Source: Sporofaciens musculi (lineage in GTDB: Bacteria; Bacillota; Clostridia; Lachnospirales; Lachnospiraceae). From it: a stretch of DNA of 64,000 bases. Location: positions 1,736,501 through 1,800,500 of the forward strand of contig NZ_WUQX01000001.1 of the NCBI RefSeq assembly GCF_009830285.1. The letters run 5' to 3'. Below, piece after piece: positions 25,411 through 30,375 of this stretch (the stretch's first letter is position 1; each line of letters opens with the position of its first letter). The translations under genes and the position numbers were made by a program. A model generated the notes under the pieces. The model did not search any database. It was not told where the DNA came from and saw only the letters and a program-made list of their open reading frames with translations.

Positions 25411-25465
25411 TGAAGTCAAATATTTTGAAGCCATGTTGTCAGATTGCATTAGATGAAATATTAAG

Positions 25466-25609
25466 GTAACAGTTCAGCCTGCAACCGCGCACTTGCTGCG
25501 CGGTTAGCAGCCAATGAATTGGAGCAGCTGGGAATCCGCCTCTTTGCCGCAGGCAAACTTTAAAATGGGCGGATTCCGTAACAGTGAAGCCGGAAGGCTG
25601 AACTGTTAC
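25466..25609. mobile_element. MITE copy 1 (144 bp) with 8-bp target duplication
   Basis: Terminal inverted repeats GTAACAGTTCAGCCT (25466-25480) and AGGCTGAACTGTTAC (25595-25609) are perfect over 15 bp. The element is flanked by direct repeats ATATTAAG (25458-25465 and 25610-25617). It is identical over all 144 bp to the copy at 30126-30269. Internal hairpins: AACCGCGC/GCGCGGTT (25483-25490/25498-25505), GGAATCCGCC/GGCGGATTCC (25531-25540/25568-25577) and TTTGCC/GGCAAA. It has no coding capacity. GTAA ends with an 8-bp duplication fit IS66-family mobilisation, which is an inference. Confidence 0.93.
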
Positions 25610-25638
25610 ATATTAAGACGAAAATGAGAAAACAGCTA

Positions 25639-25667
25639 TTGACATCACAGGTCACATATGCTAAATT
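25639..25667 (+). promoter_or_regulatory. Promoter of the infC operon
   Basis: TTGACA (25639-25644), a 17-nt spacer and TAAATT (25662-25667). It leaves a leader of about 210 nt before infC. Confidence 0.7.
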
Positions 25668-25673
25668 ATTATA

Positions 25674-25882
25674 TGCGTGAAGCAAAAAAGAAAGTAGAGT
25701 ATCCACTCTCACCATAGCACAATCGGGTGACTATTGGTTTGATATTGAGTATTAGGGGCATGATTGGTGACATTATGTGATAATGTCAGGAAGTTAAGCC
25801 TGTTATACAGATATGTTAAGTGGATAGTCTGAATGCTGTTCACTTATTTTTATTTATATTTTTATGATGGGGGTGCAAGACA
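25674..25882 (+). promoter_or_regulatory. infC operon leader, possible L20/IF3 control region
   Basis: A 5' leader of about 210 nt with complementary segments: ATCCAC near 25698 with GTGGAT near 25820, and AAGTG...CACTT near 25818-25847 before a U-rich run. This resembles the regulated leaders of infC-rpmI-rplT operons in Firmicutes, where L20 promotes termination. Homology to the known L20 leader could not be checked. Confidence 0.5.
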
Positions 25883-26389
25883 ATTAGCGATTTAATGATT
25901 AACGGGCAGATCAGAGACAAGGAAGTAAGATTAATTGGAGAAGATGGAGAGCAGAAAGGAATCATGCCGATTAAGGAGGCAATGAGACTGGCTCAGGAAG
26001 CAGAATTAGATCTTGTGAAGATCGCTCCAAAGGCTCAGCCGCCGGTGTGCAAGATTATCGATTACGGTAAGTACAGATACGAGCTTGCAAGAAAAGAAAA
26101 AGAGGCGAAGAAGAAGCAGAAGACCGTTGAAGTGAAGGAAGTGCGTCTTTCACCCAATATTGACACCAATGATTTAAACACCAAGGTCAACAACGCGAAG
26201 AAGTTTATCAGCAAGGGCAATAAAGTAAAGATAACCCTGCGTTTCAGAGGCCGCGAGATGGCACATGTACAGCAGAGCAAGCATATTCTGGACGATTTTG
26301 CAGAGCTTTTGAAGGATATTGCCGTCGTGGAGAAACAGCCGAAGCTGGAAGGCCGAAGCATGAGTATGGTTTTAACTGAAAAACGTTAA
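25883..26389 (+). CDS. infC: Translation initiation factor IF-3, AUU start
   Basis: A 168-residue factor that binds the 30S subunit and controls start-codon fidelity: N-domain (about 1-80, [23 protein letters not shown] region) and C-domain ([15 protein letters not shown]). The first ATG lies at 25895, but alignment with Bacillus IF-3 (M-I-S-K-D-L-I-I-N) extends four codons upstream to ATT-AGC-GAT-TTA, and GGGGGTG lies 7 nt before that ATT. Start AUU is known for infC of E. coli and Geobacillus, where IF-3 discriminates against it and so represses its own synthesis. Confidence 0.93.
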
Positions 26390-26421
26390 AAATATATTTA
26401 CAAATCAAGGAGGAAATAATC

Positions 26422-26619
26422 ATGCCAAAGATCAAGACAAATAGAGCAGCTGCAAAGCGCTTCAAAAAGACAGGTACAGGAAAGTTAAAAAGAAATAAAG
26501 CGTATAAGAGCCATATCTTAACTAAGAAGTCTGCAAAGAGAAAGCGGAATCTTAGGAAATCAATCATTACTGATGAAACAAATGTAAAGAACATGAAGAA
26601 GGTATTACCGTATCTGTAA
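26422..26619 (+). CDS. rpmI: 50S ribosomal protein L35
   Basis: A 65-residue highly basic protein beginning [20 protein letters not shown], the family hallmark, with the C-terminal MKKVLPYL. It is an assembly component of the large subunit. AAGGAGGAAA precedes the ATG. Second gene of the infC-rpmI-rplT operon. Confidence 0.98.
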
Positions 26620-26655
26620 GAGAGCGGAGTAAAGTATTGAAGGAGGAAACAAGAC

Positions 26656-27012
26656 ATGGCAAGAATTAAAGGCGGAATGAACGCTAGAAAGAAGCATAAC
26701 AGAGTTTTAAAATTAGCGAAAGGATACAGGGGAGCTCGTTCTAAGCAGTACAGAGTGGCAAAGCAGTCTGTTATGAGAGCTCTCACATCTTCTTATGCAG
26801 GAAGAAAGCAGCGTAAGCGTCAGATGCGTCAGTTATGGATTGCGCGTATCAACGCGGCTGCAAGACTGAACGGATTATCCTACAGCAAGTTTATGCACGG
26901 GCTGAAGCTTGCGAATGTGGATATGAACAGAAAGATGCTGGCAGAGATGGCAGTAAATGACGCGGCTGGATTTGCAGCATTGGCAGAGGCAGCTAAGGCG
27001 AAGCTGGCTTAA
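26656..27012 (+). CDS. rplT: 50S ribosomal protein L20
   Basis: A 118-residue basic protein starting [20 protein letters not shown], an early-assembly 23S rRNA binder and, in Firmicutes, the usual autogenous repressor of this operon. AAGGAGGAAAC precedes the ATG. It ends the operon; the Trp T-box promoter begins 27 nt later. Confidence 0.98.
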
Positions 27013-27038
27013 GCTGATTTAGATTTTGAAAATATTTC

Positions 27039-27067
27039 TTGACATCGGCGGTCTGCCGTGATAAAAT
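27039..27067 (+). promoter_or_regulatory. Promoter of the Trp T-box transcript
   Basis: TTGACA (27039-27044), a 17-nt spacer and TAAAAT (27062-27067). Confidence 0.8.
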
Positions 27068-27073
27068 TTTATT

Positions 27074-28827: not shown

Positions 28828-28841
28828 GGAGACGAAACAGT

Positions 28842-29378
28842 ATGAATGTTTTAGTTGTAGTAGATATGCAGAACGATTTCATTGACGGAGCATTGGGGAC
28901 AAAAGAGGCAGCAGCAATTGTGCCAAAAGTGGTGGAGAAAATCCAGAATTTTGACGGAGAGATACTCTATACCAGAGACACACACGAAGAAAACTATCTG
29001 GATACCCAGGAGGGCAAGAAGCTTCCGGTAGCACATTGTATCAAGGGAACTAAAGGTTGGGAGCTGCATCCAAAGATTGAGGCGCTTCGCAAAAAAGAAC
29101 CAATCGATAAACCTTCCTTTGGGAGTCCCCATCTTGGCAGCCTTCTAAGGAGTATGGATGACGAGTATCAATCCAGCGCTAAGGGTGGGATTGAAGCCAT
29201 TACGTTCGTAGGGCTTTGCACAGACATTTGTGTAATATCAAACGCCATGATTGCAAAAGCGTTCCTTCCAGAAGTGCCGATTATTGTAGATCCTTCCTGT
29301 TGTGCAGGGGTAACTCCAGAAAGTCATAAGAATGCATTAGAAGCAATGAAGATGTGTCAGATTATATGTGAAGAATGA
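28842..29378 (+). CDS. Cysteine hydrolase, isochorismatase/nicotinamidase family
   Basis: A 178-residue cytoplasmic hydrolase. The triad is visible: Asp8 in VVVDMQNDF, a Lys in the IDKPSFGS segment and the Cys of GLCTDICVISN; metal-binding Asp/His lie in TRDTHEENY. This arrangement suits nicotinamidase (nicotinamide to nicotinate) better than isochorismatase. It begins 14 nt after trpB2 and is therefore under the Trp T-box, which hints at a link between tryptophan supply and NAD or pyridine metabolism. Confidence 0.88.
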   Translation: MNVLVVVDMQNDFIDGALGTKEAAAIVPKVVEKIQNFDGEILYTRDTHEENYLDTQEGKKLPVAHCIKGTKGWELHPKIEALRKKEPIDKPSFGSPHLGSLLRSMDDEYQSSAKGGIEAITFVGLCTDICVISNAMIAKAFLPEVPIIVDPSCCAGVTPESHKNALEAMKMCQIICEE

Positions 29379-29395
29379 TGTAAATATCGTTTGTA

Positions 29396-29475
29396 ACTGT
29401 GAGCAGAACTTTTTAGATTGATTTGGCTGTGTAAAAAACAGAAGCCGGTCAGTATAAAAATGTTCTGCTCACAGT
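29396..29475. repeat. 80-nt structure with perfect 14-bp inverted ends
   Basis: ACTGTGAGCAGAAC (29396-29409) is perfectly complementary to GTTCTGCTCACAGT (29462-29475). The 52-nt interior holds GGCT.TGT/ACA..AGCC. It lies between convergent genes and may be a shared terminator, a small RNA or a mobile remnant; no direct repeats flank it. Confidence 0.6.
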
Positions 29476-29511
29476 GGGAAAGCTTGTATATTTACAGTAG
29501 AATGCAAGACG

Positions 29512-29991
29512 TTACGCAGGATAATTAAGCTGCTTGTCCGTGATGTTGGTGAGGACCTCCTTTAGATACTTCCGCGCAAGATATCTAGCCATAGGAAGGT
29601 TCATATCCAGGTAATTCCCGCAGTCTTTTGCACATGCGCCGGGGACATCCCCCTCGAAATTGGCAATAAAGGTAAACATCTCGGTCATCAGCGGCACAAT
29701 ATCTTTGGATGTATATTCTCCGGCAAGAAGAAGATAGAAGCCTGTCCTGCATCCCATGGGTCCGAAGTAAATGGTCTTATCAGCGTAGACCGCATGATTG
29801 CGCAAAAAGGTAGCGGCCAGATGTTCAATGGTGTGCATCTCCGCAGTATTCATGACAGGCTCATCATTCGGGCTTGTCATACGTATGTCAAATGTAGTTA
29901 CAGGGTGACCTTCTACCTGGTCAATACGGGAAACATAGAGTCCCGAAACGAGACGCAGATGGTCTATTGTAAAACTTGTAATCTTTTCCAT
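29512..29991 (-). CDS. luxS: S-ribosylhomocysteine lyase LuxS
   Basis: A 159-residue enzyme that cleaves S-ribosylhomocysteine to homocysteine and DPD, the precursor of autoinducer AI-2. Metal ligands His53 and His57 (HTIEH) and Cys124 (AKDCGNY) and catalytic Cys81 (MGCRTGFY) are present. AAAAAGGAG precedes the ATG. Its leader carries a GTGTGCCC/GGGCACAC palindrome and an extended -10 promoter. Confidence 0.97.
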   Translation of the reverse strand: MEKITSFTIDHLRLVSGLYVSRIDQVEGHPVTTFDIRMTSPNDEPVMNTAEMHTIEHLAATFLRNHAVYADKTIYFGPMGCRTGFYLLLAGEYTSKDIVPLMTEMFTFIANFEGDVPGACAKDCGNYLDMNLPMARYLARKYLKEVLTNITDKQLNYPA

Positions 29992-30014
29992 AATAGATAG
30001 ACTCCTTTTTGATT

Positions 30015-30036
30015 TAGTGTGCCCTTGGGCACACTA
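30015..30036. repeat. GTGTGCCC palindrome in the luxS leader
   Basis: TAGTGTGCCC and GGGCACACTA are perfect inverted arms separated by TT. It lies in the 5' untranslated region of luxS and belongs to the same motif group as the repeats at 11952 and 22876. Confidence 0.6.
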
Positions 30037-30067
30037 GTTATTGTGGTAATAGTTTCTTTGCCAGGTT

Positions 30068-30076
30068 ATTATATCA
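30068..30076 (-). promoter_or_regulatory. Extended -10 promoter of luxS
   Basis: On the minus strand TGATATAAT, an extended -10 with no good -35. It predicts a luxS leader of about 70 nt. Confidence 0.55.
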
Positions 30077-30125
30077 CTTTTATTAGGGATTTGCTATGAA
30101 AATGTGTGTAAATCAAGAAATATTA

Positions 30126-30269
30126 GTAACAGTTCAGCCTGCAACCGCGCACTTGCTGCGCGGTTAGCAGCCAATGAATTGGAGCAGCTGGGAATCCGCC
30201 TCTTTGCCGCAGGCAAACTTTAAAATGGGCGGATTCCGTAACAGTGAAGCCGGAAGGCTGAACTGTTAC
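30126..30269. mobile_element. MITE copy 2 (144 bp) with its own 8-bp target duplication
   Basis: Base-for-base identical to 25466-25609, in the same orientation. Flanked by direct repeats AAATATTA (30118-30125 and 30270-30277), which differ from those of copy 1 and so show an independent insertion. It lies between the divergent luxS and phosphatase promoters. Confidence 0.93.
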
Positions 30270-30375
30270 AAATATTATGCCGGCGGGTAAGAAGGATATT
30301 ATAGCTGGTCATTCCCCTGCTTTGCCTTGGACATAACATTTCCGAGAAAATGCCTATGGAAAATATATGGATATG

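Follow-up and report, generated by a model that had tools for sequence, protein, structure and literature searches.

Are two identical 144-bp units that lie within one stretch of a bacterial genome recent arrivals of a mobile element or copies of a conserved RNA element, and what could have moved them? The units occupy positions 25466-25609 and 30126-30269 of a 64,000-nucleotide stretch of Sporofaciens musculi (Lachnospiraceae; RefSeq assembly GCF_009830285.1, contig NZ_WUQX01000001.1, positions 1,736,501 to 1,800,500 of the forward strand), the whole of which we call the window. An earlier note, made from the letters alone, had read them as miniature inverted-repeat transposable elements (MITEs) that transposed recently through an IS66 transposase encoded elsewhere in the genome, and had set a conserved RNA element against this reading. 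We conclude with considerable confidence that each unit inserted recently and independently, as a non-autonomous miniature element most likely mobilised by a resident IS66-family transposase. The contrast between MITE and RNA element proved incomplete, as the unit is mobile and also has a conserved, covarying fold.

The structure of the units is as the earlier note had described it. They are identical at all 144 bases, both copies have perfect 15-bp terminal inverted repeats (TIRs; GTAACAGTTCAGCCT and AGGCTGAACTGTTAC), each has its own flanking 8-bp direct repeat and no open reading frame (ORF) of 60 or more amino acids overlaps either copy. The unit is, in short, a small non-coding sequence with terminal inverted repeats, as expected of a MITE. 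The first 8 bp of the left repeat of copy 1, GTAACAGT, recur as a direct repeat at 25578-25585. Three hairpins, P1, P2 and P3, can be placed on each copy, as follows.

25458..25465, no strand: left target-site duplication of copy 1, octamer ATATTAAG
25466..25609, + strand: MITE copy 1, 144 bp, the sense being given by the P1-P2-P3 order
25466..25480, + strand: left TIR of copy 1, 15 bp
25479..25510, + strand: hairpin P1 of copy 1, placed by fold and covariation
25531..25577, + strand: hairpin P2 of copy 1, with an inner stem, a C(GCA)G triloop and a 3' bulge, placed by fold and covariation
25578..25609, + strand: P3 of copy 1, the right-hand 32-bp palindromic end, made of the inner inverted end and the right TIR
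25610..25617, no strand: right target-site duplication of copy 1, octamer ATATTAAG
30118..30125, no strand: left target-site duplication of copy 2, octamer AAATATTA
30126..30269, + strand: MITE copy 2, 144 bp, identical to copy 1
30139..30170, + strand: hairpin P1 of copy 2, by identity to copy 1
30191..30237, + strand: hairpin P2 of copy 2, by identity to copy 1
30238..30269, + strand: P3 of copy 2, the 32-bp palindromic end, by identity to copy 1
30270..30277, no strand: right target-site duplication of copy 2, octamer AAATATTA

The window belongs to a contig of 5.43 Mb, and the genome holds ten full copies of the 144-bp unit at 99-100% identity, three of them identical and the rest differing by one or two bases once oriented alike. 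Flanking octamers agree at 8/8 positions in seven copies and at 7/8 in two, with no duplication at the tenth. Octamers flanking arbitrary 144-bp segments matched at 8/8 in 121 of 185,421 cases (0.07%), a rate measured on the DNA collected for the analysis with real elements included, and duplications at nine of ten dispersed sites are far beyond chance. The insertion targets are AT-rich and mostly intergenic.

Some match to the MITE was found in 6 of the twelve genomes of the genus group (own genome included), and a full-length match elsewhere only in G011. The unit is absent from site 1 in G005 and G003, the two congeners with both flanks on one contig, and from the aligned spacers of site 2 in G002, G003, G009 and G010; the site 2 spacers of G004-G008 are longer, and no match to the 144-bp unit was reported in them. 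In G011 the same site 2 spacer holds a 92%-identical unit in opposite orientation with a different duplication, which therefore stems from an event independent of window copy 2. The search for empty sites suggested in the earlier note thus returned congener spacers without the units, but not the exact pre-insertion octamer, which was found neither in congeners nor in G131; no single empty octamer can be demonstrated because the congener spacers are too diverged. The outcomes that the note had named as favouring an RNA element, a unit always at orthologous sites or copies without target duplications, were for the most part not seen, as congener spacers lack the units and only one copy in ten is without a duplication. 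A stationary conserved RNA at orthologous sites is ruled out, since congeners lack both window units and the duplications differ from copy to copy. Near-identical copies with duplications of their own and congener spacers without units together support recent transposition.

The same genome also encodes a plausible mobiliser. Searching it for the end pattern returned six end pairs 1814-1817 bp apart, all of them copies of one 1.81-kb insertion sequence (IS), at 99-100% identity and with the GTAACAGTTCAGCC ends of the MITE; an IS with the same ends was what the earlier note had proposed looking for. All six copies have an exact 8-bp duplication, which with the GTAA ends is the pattern of the IS66 family. 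The transposase is a 494-amino-acid ORF that matches PF03050 at 69.5 bits (cut-off 23.1); it is full length without stops in three copies and broken in the other three. On the strength of this DDE transposase profile match, the partner IS is assigned to the IS66 family. No other ORF above 84 amino acids occurs in L030, the fetched stretch with the 1.8-kb IS, and this predicted single-ORF structure, judged by ORF size, fits the ISBst12 group, without accessory tnpA/tnpB. MITE and IS match significantly over the terminal ~15-22 bp only. The MITE as a decayed copy or internal deletion of the resident IS is ruled out, because its interior is unrelated to the IS.

We propose that the single-ORF (ISBst12-like) IS66-family transposase encoded by this IS, elsewhere in the genome, most likely recognises the GTAACAGTTCAGCC ends common to MITE and IS and would insert the element into AT-rich target sites, most of them intergenic, with duplication of 8 bp. 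Catalysis in trans by this transposase is the most likely route, judging from the ends, the duplications, the copy number and the intact transposase. A true internal-deletion derivative of the resident IS does exist in the genome: L035 (own C2:3776131-3776272), a 142-bp unit with 74 bp at 89% in common with one end of the IS and with flanking octamers that do not match. Together with a 32-bp unit, it bounds a segment (L301, own C2:3772322-3776272) whose outer octamers are both AAAAATAT. A composite transposon at 3772322-3776272 was considered and rejected, as purF- and amtB-like core genes lie inside by ORF reading, making chance agreement of AAAAATAT likelier.

What the interior of the unit contributes is a separate matter. 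A scan of GTDB contigs with the 32-bp palindromic right end returned at least 109 stretches, and the loci collected yielded 50 elements between 85 and 280 bp long, 48 of them distinct, whose duplications agree at 7/8 or 8/8. A single-class alignment of 37 of the 48, restricted to lengths of 130-150 bp and to a single own-genome copy, shows the P1-P2-P3 structure paired in 96.2% of cells. Double changes occur at 15 of 33 pairs, in 70 cells compared with 20.0 +/- 3.2 after shuffling (0/500) and with 2-10 when the structure was slid along the alignment as a control; P1 covaries in 8 of 10 pairs. P1 and P2 carry the covariation signal and their pairing is firm, whereas the invariance of P3 in this alignment is uninformative, because the search pattern conditioned it. 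Across end classes, double changes were seen at 30 of 33 pairs (325 cells versus 103.5) in a model-fitted alignment of 45 matches that includes family-1 rows (those of the window's unit) and some partial matches. Because fitting to the model leans towards structure, and because the P3 inner end may track the outer one as a transposase site, the case for the fold rests on P1 and P2 in the single-class alignment.

P3 itself may be one of two possible partners of the right end, for which self-pairing and a stem with the left end are the alternatives. Run on the single-class alignment, RNAalifold tells against the full three-hairpin fold: it keeps P1 and P2 and swaps P3 for a stem joining left and right ends. 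In the window unit alone, P3 forms on the sense strand and the end-to-end stem on the other strand, and several other elements favour the end-to-end stem in folding.

The module is not tied to one set of ends. A covariance model of it matches in 17 of 120 Lachnospiraceae genomes, sampled as one per genus and including our own. In the latter a second structured MITE family of 143-144 bp has GTTACTGTTCAC ends and six copies (L212-L217; G000:C2 249207, 1109253, 1725870, 1934598, 4170431 and 4463045), all six with exact 8-bp duplications and two with imperfect ends, and covariance-model matches in other genomes revealed further end types. When the boundaries of 40 fetched stretches were allowed to shift by up to 12 bp, the best placement gave an exact octamer duplication in 18; the remaining stretches agree at 7/8 or less, or are mis-bounded. 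These alignments indicate a hairpin module conserved by compensatory base changes across Lachnospiraceae behind several end types. The interior would then be a module of P1, P2 and palindromic P3, kept by compensatory changes, that would outlive any one transposase partner by swapping ends. No Rfam family reached threshold over the units in the loci scanned, in which tRNA and T-box do so elsewhere, and membership in GA-cis or another Rfam family was rejected, all matches over the units scanned being sub-threshold.

Several observations weigh against the reading that a resident IS66-type partner moved the units. One of the ten copies has no duplication. NCBIfam model NF033517 for IS66 is the best match of the transposase, at 137 bits under a cut-off of 180, and no IS-sized pair of family-2 ends was found in the own genome. 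Across the 120 genomes, a transposase of the own type (E <= 1e-20) occurs in 10 and modules occur in 17, with an overlap of 2, the own genome and G115 (Fisher p = 0.63). Among the genomes tested, a PF03050 match is present in 7 of 16 with the module and in 4 of 16 without it (p = 0.46), and there is none in the module-bearing drafts G013, G104, G118 and G122. Ends were sought at 19 IS66-type loci, and a pair flanked by an exact octamer emerged at only 3, twice for the same G115 IS and once, with unrelated ends, in the module-free G026; the other 16 gave none, and there was no such pair at the IS66-type loci of G014, G024, G078, G090, G101 and G113. Co-occurrence of modules with IS66 genes is therefore weak; it neither proves nor breaks the partner link, because draft assemblies lose repeats. 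The IS in G115 (L294/L253), 2358 bp long with the same transposase type, ends GTTACTGTTCAC/GTTACTGTTCAG and an exact 8-bp duplication (GCCGGAAT), is a candidate partner for the second end class. In the own genome, an IS66-type mobiliser, as the earlier note had supposed, is supported by the shared ends, the exact duplications and the PF03050 transposase of the resident IS.

The earlier account was incomplete in a further respect: it had not seen a 32-bp solo form, though this is part of the same element set. The right-hand 32 bp of the 144-bp unit are a palindrome holding a second, inward copy of the end, and this palindrome also stands alone. Of the 32-bp sites among the matches listed in the scan, 13/109 are flanked by an exact octamer duplication, and 6 more agree at 7/8 (one site at a locus end was left out of the tally); a shifted-comparison control gave exact agreement in 0/5536. 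The eight own-genome family-1 solos comprise five with an exact duplication, two with 7/8 and one with 5/8 agreement. A family-2 MITE, flanked by a duplication of its own, interrupts one own-genome family-1 solo, and a family-2 solo with a 7/8 duplication was recognised by eye.

Solos are probably deletion products of the full element. GTAACAGT is directly repeated at element positions 1-8 and 113-120, so deletion between the repeats yields exactly the 32-bp solo; such a deletion, most likely by slippage across P1 and P2, would leave solos with intact duplications. It is unlikely, by comparison, that solos move as such, with a palindrome bearing two end sequences 4 bp apart as the smallest transposing unit. 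The exact and 7/8 duplications in the scan set, with none exact in the shifted control, are what movement would produce, the solo target profile (19 sites) is broadly like that of MITEs (43 sites), and in assembly JAETTM all three sites among the matches listed are solos with exact duplications, the covariance model having found nothing else in those three 8-kb loci. However, the eight-base direct repeats are so placed that deletion between them would leave just this product, further in-place deletions (90, 101, 116, 121 and 133 bp) are seen with their duplications intact, and a 32-bp element should be sterically hard to synapse.

Two solo sites are common to genomes as solos (L012/L148 and L174/L183), and in no case was a MITE of one genome found to match a same-event solo of another. 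The nearest case is L007 (own C2:1600576, a 144-bp MITE) and L178 (G007:C48:24623, a 32-bp solo), which share a spacer and lie ~3 bp apart by eye; opposite orientation and different octamers mark them as two separate insertions. With the site 2 case in G011, this pair hints at preferred insertion spacers. At L012/L148, the solo and its 150-bp flanks are 98.7-100% identical to G131, and this segment was probably transferred horizontally, because five longer G131 matches to the window region are only 69-83% identical. Viral carriage was rejected, the 32-bp pattern having 0 matches in viral contigs.

A bolder reading combines these strands: a fold-selected module repeatedly fitted with different IS66-type ends, changing transposase partners, and a 32-bp palindrome that moves by itself and would be one of the smallest elements to have true target duplications. 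We consider this quite unlikely; if true, a structured module would be selected independently of its ends.

Orientation bears on what the fold does. Copy 1 has a LytTR response-regulator gene on one side and infC on the other, and a TTGACA promoter-like site follows it after ~30 bp; copy 2 lies between the divergent luxS and histidine-phosphatase genes. Gene orientation was judged from crude ORF calls for 53 elements (37 MITEs and 16 solos, two of the solos, L174 and L183, being one orthologous site); 8 more inside crude ORFs were set apart. The collection comprised 50 MITE-sized and 28 solo elements, and its remaining 9 and 8, respectively, were excluded for ambiguous loop orientation, a locus end at <600 bp or a missing neighbour. 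For 26 of 37 MITEs (p = 0.020) and 14 of 16 solos (p = 0.004), the gene downstream runs in the direction of the sense strand. Co-orientation with the leading strand holds for 22 of 27 own-genome elements (p = 0.0015): 7/10 of family 1, 6/6 of family 2, 8/9 solos and 1/2 deletion derivatives, with replichore borders taken from the GC skew of twenty sampled 20-kb stretches, one plus-zone sample having near-zero skew. The cause of the bias is not separable, because genes follow the same strand. Pairing and orientation together suggest that the fold probably comes into play while the sense strand is being transcribed or is single-stranded.

One possibility, which we entertain tentatively, is that a sense transcript in the leader or spacer of the downstream gene folds and tunes expression or the stability of the mRNA, a role proposed for ERIC, NEMIS and BOX. 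Strong pair covariation, the orientation bias towards the downstream gene and with the leading strand, and GNRA-type P3 loops in 28 of 56 elements (a set sharing common descent) are all in keeping with an RNA, as is an excess of G-U over A-C among odd pairs across end classes (29 versus 16 column types, p = 0.07). That excess is unclear within one class (14 versus 9 column types, p = 0.40), in which A-C is the commoner by cells (25 versus 18 G-U, 13 of the A-C cells lying at one outer pair unformed in one subgroup). G-U pairs make up only 1.5-3.1% of cells, which is low for an RNA, and the lack of an Rfam family at threshold over the units scanned also speaks against this role. The overwhelming predominance of Watson-Crick pairs would suit DNA, and 144 bp is stiff for bringing two DNA ends together; hairpins on a single strand or a cruciform could fold the element, letting its ends meet or aiding replication in transposition. 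In the loop tally the first hairpin, P2, carries a C(GNA)G loop in 33 of the 56 elements, N being variable, and C(GNA)G is an exceptionally stable DNA mini-hairpin; orientation tracks the replichore, and exact duplications go with the fold in several end classes (the 18 of 40 stretches above). A DNA role nevertheless seems doubtful to us, as DDE transposases act on double-stranded ends and co-orientation with genes explains the orientation bias equally well.

Covariation could also arise if the fold were under no selection. Quasi-palindromes are known to undergo template switching, which copies arm to arm in imperfect palindromes, and the P3 inner end would track the outer one as a transposase site. 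The low G-U share is consistent with such copying, and the P3 pairs, as would be expected of a binding site present twice, differ from one end class to another but not within a class. Template switching should, however, erase asymmetries, yet the P2 3' bulge, the P3 GA/GA internal loop and the loop consensus persist; and P1 and P2, which are not ends, keep their pairing and order behind different ends. We therefore judge this explanation very unlikely.

Two further features of the window lie between the units. A T-box leader-like match at 27071-27334 (90.1 bits, gathering score 93) is upstream of a PALP-domain gene (27442-28827), and a 19-bp inverted repeat (95% complementary) at 29396-29475, between convergent isochorismatase-domain and luxS genes, is probably a bidirectional terminator.

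Among known systems, the resident IS has its closest counterparts in the ISBst12 group, with which it shares a single transposase ORF, GTAA-type ends and an 8-bp duplication, alongside its PF03050 domain. ISDge4 (IS66 family, ISBst12 group), for example, is described with one end 5'-GTAACTGCTCAGCA and an 8-bp repeat (PMC12898284). The 144-bp unit, in contrast, codes for nothing and has only ~15-22 bp in common with the resident IS. In its two consecutive hairpins, C(GAA)G-like loop and tandem GA, the unit resembles GA-cis RNA (RF02987), which matches it over the full length at 26.6 bits, below the gathering score of 34.7; no GA-cis match was reported at 28 other loci scanned. GA-cis exceeds its gathering score at G000:C2 84218, 1452849 and 2435300 (L191-L193), three copies that lie at other places in this genome and have no inverted ends or duplications by eye. 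The two-hairpin architecture of GA-cis resembles P2-P3 of the MITE.

The interior of bacterial MITEs is usually taken as unimportant, and the elements as decayed ISs. An interior foreign to the partner IS, with a fold kept behind several end types, raises the question of what selection acts on in a gene-less mobile element. One genome here brings together intact copies of the IS, ten near-identical MITEs and a set of 32-bp solos, so that trans-mobilisation, what the fold does and how REP-sized palindromes arise all become open to test. The element may also need flagging when gut Lachnospiraceae are annotated. In the parts of the open-licence literature covered, no direct description of IS66-type MITEs, of MITEs in Lachnospiraceae or of covarying MITE folds turned up.

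A precedent for a conserved MITE-like fold is found in the CIR elements of Caulobacter, ~110-bp repeats whose two-armed RNA fold is called phylogenetically conserved, in a description that, as far as it was available, mentions no IS66-type ends, duplications or solo palindrome (PMC2229807). REP palindromes, of 20-40 bp and often associated with other transposases (RAYT) (PMC3733652), are comparable with the 32-bp solos in size and palindromy, but the solos have 8-bp duplications and IS66-type ends. ERIC, NEMIS/Correia, BOX, RUP and QMITE are bacterial MITEs with folded transcripts, and shortened copies are known, down to 39 bp for QMITE1 (PMC10969869, PMC2229807, PMC3049150). As these sources portray them, they are like the 144-bp unit in their length of ~100-200 bp or more, inverted ends, target duplications, stable stem-loops and a trans-mobilisation deduced from shared ends. 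Pneumococcal repeats are reported as enriched between convergent genes, where few of the present elements lie (3 of 37 MITEs and 1 of 16 solos). The unit departs from what is described for the ERIC to QMITE group in its IS66-type ends and 8-bp duplication, two covarying internal hairpins and palindromic right end, in the occurrence of one fold behind several ends and in the recurrent 32-bp solo with duplications. Set beside these systems, the event in the window is an ordinary one, a recent MITE transposition, probably by an IS66-type transposase; the element is less ordinary, with a fold conserved apart from its ends and an end that recurs as a 32-bp solo.

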